Source: a virus. Taken from it: DNA of 26,345 bases. Of the stretch, positions 3,557 through 17,093 are shown in pieces. Where the stretch lies: the IMG/VR virus record IMGVR_UViG_3300027320_000046, positions 1 to 26,345 of that record; one strand, 5' to 3'. The position numbers and the translations under genes are program-made. The notes beneath the pieces were generated by a model. That model searched no databases. It was not told where the DNA came from and worked only from the letters and a program-made list of their open reading frames with translations. Positions within the stretch are counted from its first letter, which is position 1, and each line of letters starts with the position of its first letter.

Positions 3557-4171
3557 TTAATTACGATATCTTGTCATCGTTCCATCATGATGGGCAAGGT
3601 ATGCTTCAAAATCAACATCTGGATATTCAGTCTTTAAACCTAGCAGCATATCTAGGTTTGAGATAGCATCATCGAACAGGCGAACACGACCGTATTTACC
3701 AGAGTCGAGATACTGTTTAATGAAGATTTTCTTACCCGCAGCAGAATTGGGAGCATCTAGATTACCAGCACGGTGAACGTGCACGTCATCAATGTCAATT
3801 CCCTGTTGACGGAAAGTGTCTAGGAAAGTGTCACGATCATCGAAGTCCGAGCGAGCAGTGATAATTATCATTTTGCTACCAGCACGATTCTTAATGTTTT
3901 TGTGGATTGCCTTTGCCTTCGCGATTGCTCGAGCGATAGGTTCAGAGGTGTCGCGGAAATGCTTCGCGTCTTTAAATTCAACGAAGTCGTAGGACTCTCC
4001 AGGTTTCCGAGTGTATGTATTATACTCAGTGTTGGAGAGTTTCTTTACCAGTTTGCCGTCTTTGACGACATGGATCTGTGCTTTAGTGTTAAAGAGGGTC
4101 TCGTCAATATCCCAAATGGTTAGACCAGCACCCTCCTTAGACTCAGCAATATAATCTTTAAACTTTATCAT
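3557..4171 (-). CDS. HAD-family phosphatase with capsid-targeting-like N-terminus (204 aa)
   Basis: This is a HAD-superfamily hydrolase. Motif I is IWDIDETLF (about residues 19-27; the two aspartates are nucleophile and acid/base), motif II is IIITARSD (about 100-107), and motif IV is RLFDDAISNL (acidic pair binding Mg). It probably removes phosphate from a nucleotide or other small molecule; the substrate cannot be read from the sequence. The first residues, MIKFKDYIAES, closely resemble the T4 internal-protein capsid-targeting sequence, and IAE followed by S fits the gp21 cleavage rule (I/L-x-E). The predicted transcription start falls at or beside the ATG, leaving essentially no leader and no ribosome site. 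No other ATG precedes motif I, so this start is kept. Confidence 0.88.
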   Translation of the reverse strand: MIKFKDYIAESKEGAGLTIWDIDETLFNTKAQIHVVKDGKLVKKLSNTEYNTYTRKPGESYDFVEFKDAKHFRDTSEPIARAIAKAKAIHKNIKNRAGSKMIIITARSDFDDRDTFLDTFRQQGIDIDDVHVHRAGNLDAPNSAAGKKIFIKQYLDSGKYGRVRLFDDAISNLDMLLGLKTEYPDVDFEAYLAHHDGTMTRYRN

Positions 4172-4177
4172 ACAAAC

Positions 4178-4206
4178 AGTATACCCGATTTTTCTAGAAA
4201 AGTCAA
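4178..4206 (-). promoter_or_regulatory. Early sigma70-like promoter P5, abutting the start codon
   Basis: TTGACT (4206-4201), a 17-base spacer and TATACT (4183-4178) on the minus strand, with GGG before the -10. Only six bases separate the -10 from the ATG at 4171, so +1 should fall on or next to the A of ATG. Confidence 0.82.
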
Positions 4207-4212
4207 GCCTAT

Positions 4213-4818
4213 TTATTCGATTGGAAGTTTCTTTCTTGGTTTTTTCTTAGCAGATTCTTCTTGTTCGAGTTTCTCCTGCGTTTTAACTCGGTGTTCAAGT
4301 CGTTTAGCAACTTCCTCTGCATCCAACCAGATATCCTTGTTGTCGAGCATCGACTTAATCTCTGCGTCGGTTAAGAAATCCTTATAGAAAGAATTGAAAA
4401 GTTTCTCAGACCATACACGGAAGTGGGTAATTTGGTCATACATCTCACCACCCTTACCGATTGTTCCGCTTGAGTAGTTGTGGAACATAAACATTGTGTG
4501 GTCAGAAAGTTCGTATCGATCAGCACTCAGGAAAACCAGAGTAGCAGCACTCATACAAATTCCTTCGACTGAGCAGATAATCGTAGCAGAGGATTCTTGA
4601 ATCGCTCGAACCAACTGCAACGTGGAGAACAAATCTCCACCCTCACTGTTAATGCGGATGTAAACGATATCGGTTTCACCAACTGATCGAAGAATTTGAA
4701 ACCATTCAATGTATTCTTCTGCCTCTTTAATCTCACCACATAGGTAAAAATTAAAAATCTTTGCAGCAGGTTCAACAAAAAACTTTTGTTTAGTGGCAAA
4801 AGTTTCAGAGTCGTTCAT
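4213..4818 (-). CDS. clpP: ClpP-like serine protease (201 aa)
   Basis: The fold is that of the Clp protease proteolytic subunit. NSEGGD (about residues 57-62) matches the oxyanion region, GICMSAATLV carries the catalytic Ser (about 90), MFMFHNYSSG carries the catalytic His (about 113), and the acidic residue is probably Asp in LDNKDIWLDAEEV (about 162). Length is near the usual 190-200. The last 25 residues are Lys/Glu-rich (KKKPRKKLPIE), unlike typical ClpP. I prefer the ATG at 4818, 14 bases inside the upstream gene; upstream extension to 4902 is possible but overlaps more. It is the last gene of the gp47/gp46/def operon. Whether it works with host ClpX/ClpA or as a separate phage protease is unknown. 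It is distinct from prohead protease gp21, also present. Confidence 0.88.
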   Translation of the reverse strand: MNDSETFATKQKFFVEPAAKIFNFYLCGEIKEAEEYIEWFQILRSVGETDIVYIRINSEGGDLFSTLQLVRAIQESSATIICSVEGICMSAATLVFLSADRYELSDHTMFMFHNYSSGTIGKGGEMYDQITHFRVWSEKLFNSFYKDFLTDAEIKSMLDNKDIWLDAEEVAKRLEHRVKTQEKLEQEESAKKKPRKKLPIE

Positions 4819-5170
4819 AAAATCTCGTGATCGCTGTGATCTTGTCAATTTGTGCGTCAATTGTTTTGGTCCTTGTTTCTCCTGGCCAATGTATATAATC
4901 ACGCTCAGGATTTTTCTTTAAATTATAAAGTAGAGGCAAGATCATATCCTCGACTTCTCTCAACTTTGATGAAACTTCTTGTTGTAGTAATGCCTTGTGC
5001 TCAGCGACGATACCAGTTGCATCTGTTCCAAGAATTCTGGCAGAGAGTTCAGAGAGTTTCGCCATAATCTCATCTTGGGCACCAGTGTCGATTTGTTGTG
5101 CTGGTTGTTGGATAATTGTTTCGGTTGGATCCTCAAACGTGAACCCAAAATCATACGTTTTGTCTGACAT
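4805..5170 (-). CDS. Conserved-type hypothetical protein (121 aa)
   Basis: Not assigned to a family with a known role. The N-terminal 35 residues are acidic and probably disordered (MSDKTYDFGFTFEDPTETII, then Gln-rich). The remainder is mostly helical with coiled-coil character (EIMAKLSELSARILG ... LLQQEVSSKLREVEDMILPL). It ends with a distinctive LLYNLKKNPERDYIHWPG motif and a final helix. It overlaps the deformylase stop by 20 bases and the ClpP start by 14, so it is translated as part of the gp47-gp46-def-clpP operon. A small helical adaptor or structural protein is plausible, without direct evidence. Confidence 0.75.
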   Translation of the reverse strand: MSDKTYDFGFTFEDPTETIIQQPAQQIDTGAQDEIMAKLSELSARILGTDATGIVAEHKALLQQEVSSKLREVEDMILPLLYNLKKNPERDYIHWPGETRTKTIDAQIDKITAITRFYERL

Positions 5171-8625: not shown

Positions 8626-8949
8626 TCACTTAGCAGGGGTGGATGAGGCAGCAGGAGCCGTTTCATCAACCGCATTCTGAATTACATCGACGGCTTCAAC
8701 AGTAGGGGTTTCGCCATCAGCGGCAAGATGCACAAGGTTAATCCGTCCATCACACAGCATATAGTGTTGATCTACGCCAAGACGACTGGATTCGAGATAG
8801 ATGCAACCTGAATTCTGACGAGTAACTTGGGATACATTTTCTTCGTACTTTCCGACAATATAGAAAAGGAGAAGAAGTGGAATACCCAAACCAGCAGCGA
8901 CTATAAGACTTGTGGTATTTTCAGAAACCCATTTAAAAAACTTACTCAT
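8626..8949 (-). CDS. Membrane-anchored small protein (107 aa)
   Basis: Short cytoplasmic N-terminus (MSKFFKWVSENTT), one transmembrane helix (SLIVAAGLGIPLLLLFYIVG, residues about 14-33), then a soluble domain of about 50 residues with two cysteines (SGCIYLESS ... YMLCDGRINL) and an Ala/Glu/Pro-rich tail (ETPTVEAVDV ... APAASSTPAK). The two cysteines suggest a periplasmic domain with a disulphide. AAGGAG lies 6 bases before the ATG, and promoter 8979-9007 lies directly upstream, making it the first gene of the gp47/gp46 operon. The family is not recognised. Confidence 0.78.
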   Translation of the reverse strand: MSKFFKWVSENTTSLIVAAGLGIPLLLLFYIVGKYEENVSQVTRQNSGCIYLESSRLGVDQHYMLCDGRINLVHLAADGETPTVEAVDVIQNAVDETAPAASSTPAK

Positions 8950-12737: not shown

Positions 12738-14012
12738 TTACATAAGGTTAGTAACCTTAACACGACGATAGTAGTGGTTGCGGTTAGCAGTGAACGTATC
12801 AGCGTCTGTGTCACCATTCGACTTAAGAACGAATGGGTTAGCAATCATGCCGTAACGAGTCTTGAAACCAATCTTAGGTTGGAAGGTGTTAGGGTCGATC
12901 GCACGAACCATTTGTAGTGGAACGTATGGGCAATAGAAGATACCTGCGTCATAAGCATTCGCACCCTTATAACCAACAACGTAGAACTGCGATGCAGCGC
13001 CAGCATTTGCTGAGTAAGGATCAACGTATACCTTGTAACGACCGTTAAGAACACCAGCAAAAGTATTGCCTGTATCATCAACATTCAGAGTTGGCGAACC
13101 AGAAAGTGCAGCACCAGTATCAAGCATACCTGCCATTGCAAGAGCAGCAGCAACGTCTGACGAACAGATAATGAAGTTACCCTTACCACGACGAGTGTCT
13201 TGAGCAATTACGTTCGCATCGCGTTCGATGTTGAACAGAAGACCCTTGAAACGCTCAACTGACCAACGACCGTTTGAGTCAACATCAAGATCGAAAGTAC
13301 CAGCAGTTGCAGTCGATGCTGCACCTGGCTTAGCAACCTTATAGATCGTGCGGATAACTTCGCGGTTGATTTCAGCAAGAATTTCTTGTGAAAGGATGTT
13401 CGAGAGTTCTGACTCAGCGTCAAGACCGTGAATTGCCTTGAGATCTTGAGCAAGTTCTACTGTGTATTCTGCTTTAAGAGCACGTGTCTTAGCAGTTACA
13501 GTTGTCTTCTCGATGCTGAATGCCATCTCATTGAAGTCAGTTCCGCCTGATTCACCAAGTGCTTCAGCGTCAGCAGTAGCAATACCAGTACCTGTGGTGT
13601 AAGAACCGTCAACTGGGTTTGAACCAGCATGAGTTCCTGTACCCGAGAAGTCTGTATCTGCTTCGTTGAAGAGTGCTTCCGTACCCGTCTGGGTAGTGTA
13701 TGCCGACTTCATTGCGAAGATAAGACCAACTGGTCCAGTCATTGGTTGAACGCCAGCAACGTCATATGCCATCAAGTTTGGCAGAGCACGACGAACGAGC
13801 GAGATTAGGATTGGATCGTAGTTATCGATGCCAGATCCAGTTGCGTTTGCAGGAGTTTCGAACAACGCAGTCTTTTCTTCTTGAAGAGCCTTTTGTTGGT
13901 TTTCGAGAACGACAGCAGTAACTGCACGCTTGTAGGAATCCTTAATTTGTCCCATGCCTTCATGGTTTAGGACAGGCTCCCACTTCTTTTGTAGAGATTC
14001 TGAAAGAAACAT
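12738..14012 (-). CDS. 23: gp23 major capsid protein
   Basis: Major head subunit. The 424-residue product is close in length to the short gp23 forms of marine T4-like phages and shorter than T4 (521). The N-terminus FLSESLQKKWEPVLNHEGMG and the IDNYDPILISLVRRALPNLM segment followed by DVAGVQPMTGPVGLIFAM are hallmark gp23 sequence. The C-terminal region (PLQMVRAIDPNTFQPKIGFK) is also typical. The first 50-60 residues should be the propeptide removed by gp21. AAGGAG lies 6-7 bases before the ATG, with a late promoter 38 bases upstream. It is followed by a strong terminator, so it is probably the most abundant late message. Confidence 0.97.
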   Translation of the reverse strand: MFLSESLQKKWEPVLNHEGMGQIKDSYKRAVTAVVLENQQKALQEEKTALFETPANATGSGIDNYDPILISLVRRALPNLMAYDVAGVQPMTGPVGLIFAMKSAYTTQTGTEALFNEADTDFSGTGTHAGSNPVDGSYTTGTGIATADAEALGESGGTDFNEMAFSIEKTTVTAKTRALKAEYTVELAQDLKAIHGLDAESELSNILSQEILAEINREVIRTIYKVAKPGAASTATAGTFDLDVDSNGRWSVERFKGLLFNIERDANVIAQDTRRGKGNFIICSSDVAAALAMAGMLDTGAALSGSPTLNVDDTGNTFAGVLNGRYKVYVDPYSANAGAASQFYVVGYKGANAYDAGIFYCPYVPLQMVRAIDPNTFQPKIGFKTRYGMIANPFVLKSNGDTDADTFTANRNHYYRRVKVTNLM

Positions 14013-14062: not shown

Positions 14063-15271
14063 TTAGATTTGGGATGCCATTCTGTCTAGTGCCTTTGAGT
14101 ACTTCTCCATAAGAGGAGATGAATTATACTCAGTTGACTCATCTAGACCGTCAGTCATCTTTTCTTCCGTATTAGGTTGTGCTTTAGGGAAATAGTTTTC
14201 TCTAATGACATTCAACTTTTCTTCGAAAATTTCTGCGTTCTCGAATTCTACATCAGCGACAATACTTACAAACTTTTCAGCGTCGGTCTTTGCGAGGTTT
14301 TCGGTAACCGCGATTAGGACGCTTTCTCTTTGAAGTCTTGTATTTTCAGCATGCAGTTCTACATTTGCAGTCATAGTTTGGTCCACACGGGATTGAAGAT
14401 TTTCAATCTCGACTTGCATTTCACCAAGCACATCATATTTCTCTTCAGGAACTTCAATATAATGTTCCGAAAACAGATTCTTAAGTCCTGCAATAAACGA
14501 TTCAGTGATGTCAGAACGCAGACCGTTCTCAACAACGAGTTCGTTTTCAGCAATATACTGTTCAGCGACATAAGTTAGGTAAGAATCAACCTTCTCAACA
14601 AGTTCGGTTTTAAATTCTTCCATAAGGTCAGAAGCTTCTTCGATAAGTGCTTCTTCAAGTGCCGCTACCTTAACGTTGACAGACGCAGAAACCATTGCTT
14701 CAAACAGCGATGCTGCTTTACCACGGAATTCTTCTGACAGATTTTCGTTACCATCAAATAGAGTTGCGAGTTCTGCTGAGAAATCTTCTTCAAGATCATC
14801 TTCGCCTTCGTCTTCATCTTCTTGATCATCATCGTCTTCGATTAGATCATCATCTTCTGGTTCAAACTCTTCTTGATGAACGTTGCCCTTAGAAGATGCT
14901 TGATTCACAACCGAAGTTGGATCAGCAACAGTTTTGAAGTTTGGTGCATCACCTGGACCAGATGCAGATCCTGACGAGTCAGAAGTATCCTTGGCGTTTA
15001 CGGCAACCTTTGCACCCTGATTTTCGTCAGCATCACCATCACGGTCTTGGTGTGGTGCGTCTGCCGAAGAACCTTGGCGTGGTTGAGTTTGGTCGCCCGA
15101 TGTATTTGACTTAGATGCCTTTGAGGTATCTTTACCGTTCGAGGCACCCATCTTTTCTGAGGAAGATGTGACCGAATTACCTTGCTTTGGTGCGGTCATA
15201 TCACCGTCAGAAGCTTCAGTAATCGCTTGCTTTCCCGCAAGCAACTCTCTGATTTTTCTTTCTACAGTCAT
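14063..15271 (-). CDS. 22: gp22 prohead core scaffolding protein, extended
   Basis: Scaffold of the prohead core, later digested by gp21. Assigned by place between gp21 and gp23 and by composition. Residues 1-20 (MTVERKIRELLAGKQAITEA) form a conserved-looking helix, and about 21-135 are Ser/Gly/Asp-rich and disordered. About 136-165 is a nearly pure Asp/Glu run, and the remainder is helical and acidic with coiled-coil stretches (EMQVEIENLQSRVDQTMTAN) ending YSKALDRMASQI. At 402 residues it is much longer than T4 gp22 (269), owing to the disordered N-terminal section. Many I/L-x-E sites would suit gp21 cleavage. GGAG lies 7 bases before the ATG, and a late promoter lies upstream. Confidence 0.88.
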   Translation of the reverse strand: MTVERKIRELLAGKQAITEASDGDMTAPKQGNSVTSSSEKMGASNGKDTSKASKSNTSGDQTQPRQGSSADAPHQDRDGDADENQGAKVAVNAKDTSDSSGSASGPGDAPNFKTVADPTSVVNQASSKGNVHQEEFEPEDDDLIEDDDDQEDEDEGEDDLEEDFSAELATLFDGNENLSEEFRGKAASLFEAMVSASVNVKVAALEEALIEEASDLMEEFKTELVEKVDSYLTYVAEQYIAENELVVENGLRSDITESFIAGLKNLFSEHYIEVPEEKYDVLGEMQVEIENLQSRVDQTMTANVELHAENTRLQRESVLIAVTENLAKTDAEKFVSIVADVEFENAEIFEEKLNVIRENYFPKAQPNTEEKMTDGLDESTEYNSSPLMEKYSKALDRMASQI

Positions 15272-15322: not shown

Positions 15323-15979
15323 TTAAATCTTAGCAAGTCTATTGAGGAAATTCTCAAATACTACCATTTTTGCTTCTTCGAGTTGCTTTTTGCTTGCCTT
15401 CTTAATGACTTTCTTTGCCATATCAGATGCTTGTTCAGTCCAAAGACCATCAACAATTACCCATTCTTTATTTTCCATAATGCCTCTTACGAATGCATCA
15501 GGAGCAGAAGGATCGGCAACAATATCTGCTGCGGTTGCAAGATGGAAGTCGTCTTGAACGATTTGAATTCCATCTCTATTCTCTTTCAGAGTACCAAGTC
15601 CTCTTGAAGAAACACCAAGTTGACCACCTGATTCAATCAGACCACGAGCAATATTTCCCATGGGAGTATCAGTGATCTTCGCCTTACCCATCCAGTTATC
15701 ACCATCTCGGCGAAGTTCTGTAACGATGTGCGAAACACGATCGAGGTTGATCGAAGGACCATCTGGGTGACCAAGTTCGCCAAATGCTCTCTTGTTCTCC
15801 ACTGCTTCCTTCATATAACGCTCGACTTCTTTTTCCATAATATCAGCAGGATACATGCGTCCATTACGATTCTTGAGATTTGACTGTAGGAAAACACCTT
15901 CAATGAAGAGGGATTTCTTGCCGTCTTTTTCTTCAGTGATATAACGAACGTTGTCGTTTACTTCAGTAATTAATTTCAT
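15323..15979 (-). CDS. 21: gp21 prohead core protease
   Basis: Serine protease of the prohead that cleaves gp23, gp22 and other core proteins after (I/L)-x-E. Visible: SLFIEGVFLQSNLKNRNGR (about 23-41), the His motif GELGHPDGPSINL (H71), the Ser motif LGVSSRGLGT (S124 or S125) and DIVADPSAPDAFV downstream. Length 218 compares with 212 in T4. The ATG overlaps the preceding gene stop as TAATG. The C-terminal helix (KKVIKKASKKQLEEAK) is basic. It is distinct from the ClpP-like protease in this window. Confidence 0.96.
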   Translation of the reverse strand: MKLITEVNDNVRYITEEKDGKKSLFIEGVFLQSNLKNRNGRMYPADIMEKEVERYMKEAVENKRAFGELGHPDGPSINLDRVSHIVTELRRDGDNWMGKAKITDTPMGNIARGLIESGGQLGVSSRGLGTLKENRDGIQIVQDDFHLATAADIVADPSAPDAFVRGIMENKEWVIVDGLWTEQASDMAKKVIKKASKKQLEEAKMVVFENFLNRLAKI

Positions 15980-16373: not shown

Positions 16374-17093
16374 TTACTGGTATCTTGCTTTTTTCTGATT
16401 ACGAAGAATCTTAAAATCGTGACCATCAACCTTACCATTCTTATTCGCGTCAATCTTATGTTGATCGCCCTTTAGTGCTTCAGACTTCAAAGAACTTTGC
16501 ATTTCTTGCTTTGTTCTTTTATGTTTCTTTTTAAAATCTGCATGAGACAATGATTCCATGTCCATTGCCAGATCTTTCATACGACCTTCTTCTAGATCGA
16601 CTTCTTCCTTGGCAAGTCTATTTGTTGCCTTGTCGATACCCTTTGCTCGATTCATCCAGCGATGACCGAGTTTTTCGCCTTGTTTATGTGCAGGACTATC
16701 ATAATTGTTTTTCTTTTTTGCTTTCTTCAGAGAAGCATTAACATCGGCAGCTGCATTCTGTGCATCAGAATGTTTACGAGCAGTATGCGCCATATCCCGT
16801 GCTGCTGATGCTGTATACGATGATAGAGTTTTTCTCGAAAGTTCGTCGATCTGCTCGACTTCTTCTCCGTACATCTTATCAAGTGCACGGTTGACACCAA
16901 CTTTACGGTTCTGCATCTTCTTTAGCTGACCATCATAACCCATCTTTGGTTTACGAGCAGTAAAGTCAGCAGCTGCCTTCTTAGCATAAGCACCCATAGT
17001 TGATTTTGAAAGTTCGTCGAGAGTTTCAACTTCTTCTACAAACAATGAAAGAGTTTCATCGATCTGTTCCAGTAATTGTTTAAACGTCTTCAT
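16374..17093 (-). CDS. Repeat-containing prohead core-type protein with EF-hand-like loop (239 aa)
   Basis: Occupies the gp68 position. It is highly charged, Lys/Glu-rich and helical. N-terminus MKTFKQLLEQIDE resembles a capsid-targeting sequence. Two clear repeat units, EEVETLDELSKSTMGAYAKK (about 20-39) and EEVEQIDELSRKTLSSYTAS (about 77-96), plus a decayed third (EEVDLEEGRMKDL, about 163-175), are each preceded by a GVNRALDKM- or GIDKATNRL-type segment. Each repeat contains L-D-E or I-D-E, the gp21 cleavage rule. Near the end DANKNGKVDGHDF (about 215-227) fits a calcium-binding EF-hand/dockerin loop (D1, N3, N5, G6, D9, D12). GAGG lies 6 bases before the ATG, which overlaps the gp67-like gene by 14 bases. 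Probably a prohead core or internal protein. Confidence 0.85.
   Translation of the reverse strand: MKTFKQLLEQIDETLSLFVEEVETLDELSKSTMGAYAKKAAADFTARKPKMGYDGQLKKMQNRKVGVNRALDKMYGEEVEQIDELSRKTLSSYTASAARDMAHTARKHSDAQNAAADVNASLKKAKKKNNYDSPAHKQGEKLGHRWMNRAKGIDKATNRLAKEEVDLEEGRMKDLAMDMESLSHADFKKKHKRTKQEMQSSLKSEALKGDQHKIDANKNGKVDGHDFKILRNQKKARYQ

Follow-up and report, generated by a model that had tools for sequence, protein, structure and literature searches.

The internal proteins of bacteriophage T4 carry N-terminal propeptides of 10-19 residues, and the first ten residues of one of them, IPIII, are enough for targeting (PMC9026906, a review of Black's work). Within this capsid-targeting sequence (CTS), targeting depends mainly on residues 4 and 7 and processing on residues 8 and 10; an Asp at position 10 blocks processing and not targeting (PMC9026906). 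T4 Alt is an enzyme that is carried in the head and injected, and gp21 cuts it after a short propeptide (PMC9026906).

Comparison of the HAD N-terminus with the T4 capsid-targeting sequence

The window analysed here is a 26-kb IMG/VR fragment (26,345 nucleotides) of a T4-like myovirus, and it contains a gene for a HAD phosphatase with a predicted N-terminal CTS (3557..4171, minus strand; 204 aa, 23.3 kDa, pI 7.9). The product starts with MIKFKDYIAESKEGAGLTIWDIDETLF and reads MIKFKDYIAES-KEGAGLTIWDIDETLF onwards. A sequence-only reading had proposed that this start resembles the T4 internal-protein CTS, with I-A-E before Ser, and residue-by-residue comparison with the mapped T4 signal (PMC9026906) bears the proposal out. 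The decapeptide MIKFKDYIAE (4142..4171, minus strand) equals the T4 CTS at each mutationally important position, with aromatic residues at 4 and 7 (targeting) and I/L at 8 and E at 10 (gp21 cleavage), so that F4, Y7, I8 and E10 all match mapped IPIII residues. T4 IPI, IPII and IPIII are alike in having a ten-residue N-terminal peptide with these same features. Cleavage by gp21 is predicted after E10, before Ser11, which would leave SKEGAGLTIWDIDETLFNTK as the new N-terminus. Given the N-terminal composition of related phages, the pattern [FY]4-[FY]7-[IL]8-E10 would be met by chance in 1.2e-4 of genes, which amounts to 0.004 matches expected among the 32 genes in the window. Only 3 of 2522 internal Met positions in the window and four related genomes match it, and two of those three look like genuine starts of other tagged genes.

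As with the T4 internal proteins, the gp21/gp22/gp23 head system is encoded in the same genome as the putative cargo. The window contains, all on the minus strand, a gp21-type prohead protease of the Peptidase_S77 family, the presumed processing enzyme (15323..15979; PF03420, E=2.9e-41), a gp22-type scaffold, the presumed docking partner of the CTS (14063..15271; PF25623, E=1e-58), and the gp23 major capsid protein (12738..14012; PF07068, E=6e-143). The nearest relatives of the capsid protein are those of Methylophilales phage Melnitz (71%) and Pelagibacter phage HTVC008M (69%). The phage is presumably of freshwater origin, an assumption that we base on some metagenome numbers of its relatives. 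Adjoining gp20/gp21 lies a candidate prohead core protein (16374..17093, minus strand) whose N-terminus, MKTFKQLLEQ, is a partial CTS match with Glu at 9 instead of 10 and which has only a weak PHROG match. This protein may be a core component of the gp67/gp68 type; it contains ELSxxTxxxY repeats, and its C-terminus weakly resembles a dockerin.

The locus departs from the T4 precedents in its cargo. Unlike the T4 internal proteins, the protein is a conserved HAD enzyme and not a small inhibitor, and its packaging has not been demonstrated. It shares with Alt, a packaged ADP-ribosyltransferase, the character of a head-borne, injected enzyme, which for the HAD protein is inferred; it belongs, however, to another enzyme class, and the seven-residue propeptide of Alt differs from the ten-residue CTS.

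The HAD domain

The open reading frame is real, and the claim that it encodes a HAD phosphatase with a CTS-like start held up, with the full catalytic set present and conserved. The HAD domain occupies residues 15-201 (3569..4129, minus strand) and retains DxDETL, TAR, K147 and DD167-168 in alignment; motifs I-IV (DxD, T/S, K, DD) are all kept across 38 homologues. In the AlphaFold model (pLDDT 88) the first ten residues lie outside the HAD fold and have low pLDDT (56). The fold of the enzyme is intact and of the HAD-III acid-phosphatase-like type.

The substrate is a matter of inference. The protein matches PHROG 415, 'polynucleotide kinase' (E=1e-9), and scores 20.1 bits against PF03767 (class B acid phosphatase, HAD-IIIB), under the Pfam cut-off of 27; PF03767 matches 20 of 38 family members at E<=0.01, the best at 1.3e-7. 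Foldseek returned AphA, Lem4 and T4 Pnkp. A first, poorer structure model pointed to the T4 Pnkp 3'-phosphatase, whereas the better model lies closest to AphA, a class B acid phosphatase (HAD-IIIB), and to HAD effectors of Legionella; because the two models point in different directions we claim no specific substrate. Both AphA and the T4 Pnkp 3'-phosphatase domain are among the best structural neighbours of the catalytic domain and match it weakly by profile, but identity is only 10-15% and TM about 0.4-0.5. The HAD protein has no signal peptide for the periplasm, falls under the Pfam cut-off and has no kinase domain; with a phosphatase-like domain alone in 204 aa, it does not meet the two-domain criterion for a T4 polynucleotide kinase/phosphatase. 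Our best guess is that it acts as a nucleotidase or end-phosphatase, a substrate class that is inferred; the action on host nucleotides or signals suggested by the sequence-only reading is likewise conjectural.

Conservation of the decapeptide among HAD homologues

HAD homologues were gathered from IMG/VR. Two of the searches used peptides from the catalytic domain only and thus did not select for the N-terminus; one other search did so in part. No HAD homologue was found in cultured phages by tblastn against 50,697 records. Among 37 distinct homologue N-termini, 29 fit M..[FYL]..[FY][IL].E exactly, including MIGFKEFISES, MLKFNEFLSEQ, MQSFLEFLGEE, MKTFSEFLNES, MRSFSEYLSEQ and, from a TTG start codon, MKNYKKYITEG. 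Two more (MKHELIEYIIEA and MKRSLIDYIIEA) fit with one extra residue, bringing the exact or shifted pattern to 31 of 37. Within the 29 exact fits, the most variable positions are 3 (2.4 bits) and 9 (2.6 bits, the highest of the ten), position 4 swaps only among F, Y and L, position 7 is F or Y, position 8 is I or L, and position 10 is E; the restriction at 4, 7, 8 and 10 is in part a consequence of how the class was defined. The decapeptide of the HAD family is conserved in the manner expected of a CTS.

The remaining six N-termini form a clade, MIKKRF[KR]EF[IV]G[ST]G, in which the aromatic residues are kept (F..F[IV]) and E10 is lost. That this clade is untagged because its phages are not T4-like was considered and rejected: its single long carrier (G009) has gp21 and gp23 and is T4-like. 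By the T4 rules, its enzyme may be targeted but uncut, or may stand outside the system, and we cannot decide between the two. The sequence-only reading named, as a refutation, homologues that lack the FKxYIAE pattern while conserving the enzyme; the clade without the cleavage Glu fulfils this in part.

Virion proteomes of cyanophages with the motif

Mass spectrometry detected 52 of the 219 ORF products of cyanophage S-CREM2 in virions (PMC10665884). Six annotated S-CREM2 genes start with the motif. Five of their products were seen in virions in these data: gp6, a SAM hydrolase (MKDFDSFLEE), gp13 (MKDLHSFLTE), gp14, a kinase (MKRFDAFLTE), gp136 (MQTFSMFFSE) and gp154, a cytidylyltransferase (MKNFSSFLTE). 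The sixth, gp175 (MNWLKNYLIE, 55 aa), is not among the virion proteins given there. The association is significant (hypergeometric P = 0.003; 3e-4 among non-structural genes). The authors of the proteome did not settle whether proteins of this kind are cargo or contaminants, and noted that non-virion proteins may contaminate preparations (PMC10665884).

The T4-GC190 cytidylyltransferase of the cyanophage core starts with MKKFSAFL[TN]EA in two members, and the S-SM1 protein of this group was detected in virions (PMC3037559). In S-SZBM1 only 30 proteins were detected; these include a cytidylyltransferase with a motif one residue shorter (MRFRQFIIEA) and do not include small tagged proteins of 105 and 165 aa (starts MKTFKQYITEA and MKSFKSFLSES), so that one of three tagged products was detected, which is not significant. 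Given five of six in S-CREM2 and the undetected small proteins in the shallower S-SZBM1 set, the virion test of the motif is strong in one data set and unreplicated for small proteins. The SAM hydrolase, kinase and cytidylyltransferases of S-CREM2, S-SM1 and S-SZBM1 are non-structural enzymes detected in virions and, like the HAD protein, start with the motif or a close variant; they belong, however, to other enzyme families, and the available passages of their papers name no targeting peptide.

Separately, the virion-detected 'Cas9-like nuclease' gp12 of S-CREM2 (L381:7704-10313, minus strand) carries the CTS-like stretch RFASFMAEA at about residues 18-26 and not at the start given in the annotation, which may be wrong; alternatively, the tag is internal.

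Predicted promoters of the HAD gene

A sigma-70-like promoter, TTGACT-17-TATACT (4178..4206, minus strand), precedes the HAD gene, and the homologous loci of this clade conserve it. It lies so near the gene that the transcript is predicted to begin at the ATG itself; a leaderless early HAD transcript is inferred. Further upstream, AATAAATA (4210..4217, minus strand; 38 nt upstream of the ATG) matches NATAAATA, the reported cyanophage late promoter (PMC2984593), which is also that of T4. The window has 11 copies of NATAAATA on the coding strand and none on the other, six of them within 50 nt upstream of gp13, gp18, gp19, gp22, gp23 and the HAD gene. At the HAD gene, AATAAATA overlaps the TAA stop codon of the preceding gene, and other copies of AATAAATA in the window lie inside genes. 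ATAAATA is kept in syntenic HAD homologues, and the syntenic clade conserves both promoter elements. T4-like cyanophages are thought to pair early and late promoters (PMC2984593), and we infer that the HAD gene is expressed both early and late. The gene directly upstream (4213-4902, minus strand) encodes a ClpP-like protease related to PHROG 1827 and to head maturation proteases, in a genome that also has the gp21-type protease.

A good sigma-70-like promoter just before the ATG would also suit an ordinary intracellular enzyme made early, its N-terminus being a relic or a chance short helix without a packaging role, and the MIKKRF clade, which retains the enzyme without E10, is compatible with this. 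We regard this explanation as unlikely. A chance CTS match would occur in about 1e-4 of genes, the targeting and cleavage positions are conserved while positions 3 and 9 drift, and persistence down to 45% identity would be surprising in a relic; moreover, in S-CREM2 the motif tracks presence in the virion.

The decapeptide on unrelated proteins

Related phages were searched for other proteins with the same start, as the sequence-only reading had suggested, and dozens of unrelated ones carry the decapeptide. A DNA pattern for MK[ST and similar]FK[EQ]F[LI and similar]xE matched at least 120 viral stretches, compared with one for a shuffled version of equal degeneracy, and 11 places in 257 Gb of bacterial and archaeal genomes. 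Among the matches listed, 81 tagged ORFs fell into 33 clusters after removal of the first 12 residues. One of them is an ART-PolyVal protein and another a DPBB protein, and DUF6321-like and nucleotidyltransferase-like proteins were recognised by eye. In tagged proteins of HAD-carrying genomes and Melnitz, Pfam domains begin just after the tag, DUF6267 at residues 14-18 and DUF6321 at residues 18-24. A 150-kb relative (G001), whose HAD protein is 95% identical, encodes further motif proteins (MLSFKDFISEDG, MKSFKFFLNEGG and MHSFAEFVVET), and Melnitz has the tagged starts MQGFKTFLSEA and MINFSKYITED. Co-occurrence of gp23/gp21 with the tag or with the MIKKRF clade is limited by most contigs being fragments; a T4 portal was present in 11 of the 24 tagged contigs of at least 30 kb. 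The decapeptide behaves as a mobile module at the N-termini of unrelated proteins of aquatic phages. A word match over open-access titles and texts, which is no proof of absence, found no CTS reported in cyanophages or other aquatic T4-like phages.

Tags are also present on very small proteins, and IPIII of T4 has a role in assembly (PMC9026906), which would fit a HAD protein that the peptide brings into the prohead core, where it helps to build the head or is retained in the particle, without being an injected effector. This we consider very unlikely, since the HAD catalytic residues are strictly conserved, suggesting selection for phosphatase activity, and some of the proteins tagged elsewhere are enzymes with a potential to act on molecules of the host.

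Several other loci deserve mention. Four genes on one contig (L144, 7000-9422, minus strand) each start with MKTFKQFI.E, one being ADP-ribosyltransferase-like by eye, and form a candidate effector island. On another (L067:4870-6357, minus strand), a 495-aa protein tagged with MKSFKFFLNEGG resembles PHROG 19290 in its N-terminal region and a cytidylyltransferase in its C-terminal region. Within the window, a 107-aa protein (8626-8949) starting MSKFFKWVSE has only a loose motif followed by a hydrophobic helix and was excluded from the tagged count.

DUF6267 proteins are CTS-tagged at three loci (L088:13281-14525, L372:3577-4743 and L074:2299-3411). The family has KWDG/KYDG, QGDLM/QGDIM, EGFV and K-V-D, ordered as in ATP-dependent polynucleotide ligases; motif I is KIDD in two HAD-carrying phages, and PHROG 455 shows a fusion of the family with a cytidylyltransferase. 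No PDB sequence match supports a ligase, which rests on the motif reading alone. It is conceivable, although we give the idea little credence, that aquatic T4-like phages have a general CTS-based injection with dozens of exchangeable cargoes, and that the HAD phosphatase, co-packaged with ligase-like DUF6267 and nucleotidyltransferases, belongs here to an injected end-healing/sealing kit that repairs host-nuclease damage in the first minute.

Inferred packaging and injection of the HAD phosphatase

We think it probable that this T4-like freshwater phage packages the HAD phosphatase in its virions and injects it; for this protein, its packaging, its cleavage, its injection and its substrate are all inferred. 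The presence of a T4-like tag at its start is the reason to suppose that it is carried in the particle and enters with the DNA. The protein would be made late, and probably early too. Its first ten residues would draw it into the gp22 prohead core, the gp21-type protease would cut it after E10, and the cleaved phosphatase of about 22 kDa would lie free among the packaged DNA and be injected with the genome. In the cell it would most likely dephosphorylate a small phosphorylated substrate or a nucleic-acid end, as a nucleotidase or 3'-phosphatase does, and so help infection to start.

What is observed is that the sequence matches and is conserved, that the peptide behaves as a mobile module, that the active site is intact and that, in a related phage, proteins with the same motif are associated with virions. 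The original proposal that the enzyme is packaged in the capsid thus gains good support from signal homology and from S-CREM2, but it has not been shown for the HAD protein itself. Against it count the loss of E10 in the MIKKRF clade, the undetected small proteins of S-SZBM1, the overlap of the late-promoter match with a stop codon and possible contamination of the S-CREM2 preparation.

Cyanophage papers report virion enzymes for which cargo and contamination are unresolved, and a ten-residue motif that can be read from sequence would explain their entry and predict more of them, the HAD phosphatase being one such predicted cargo. Because the motif is readable in this way, the first-minute takeover of the host by abundant marine and freshwater phages would become testable from genomes.
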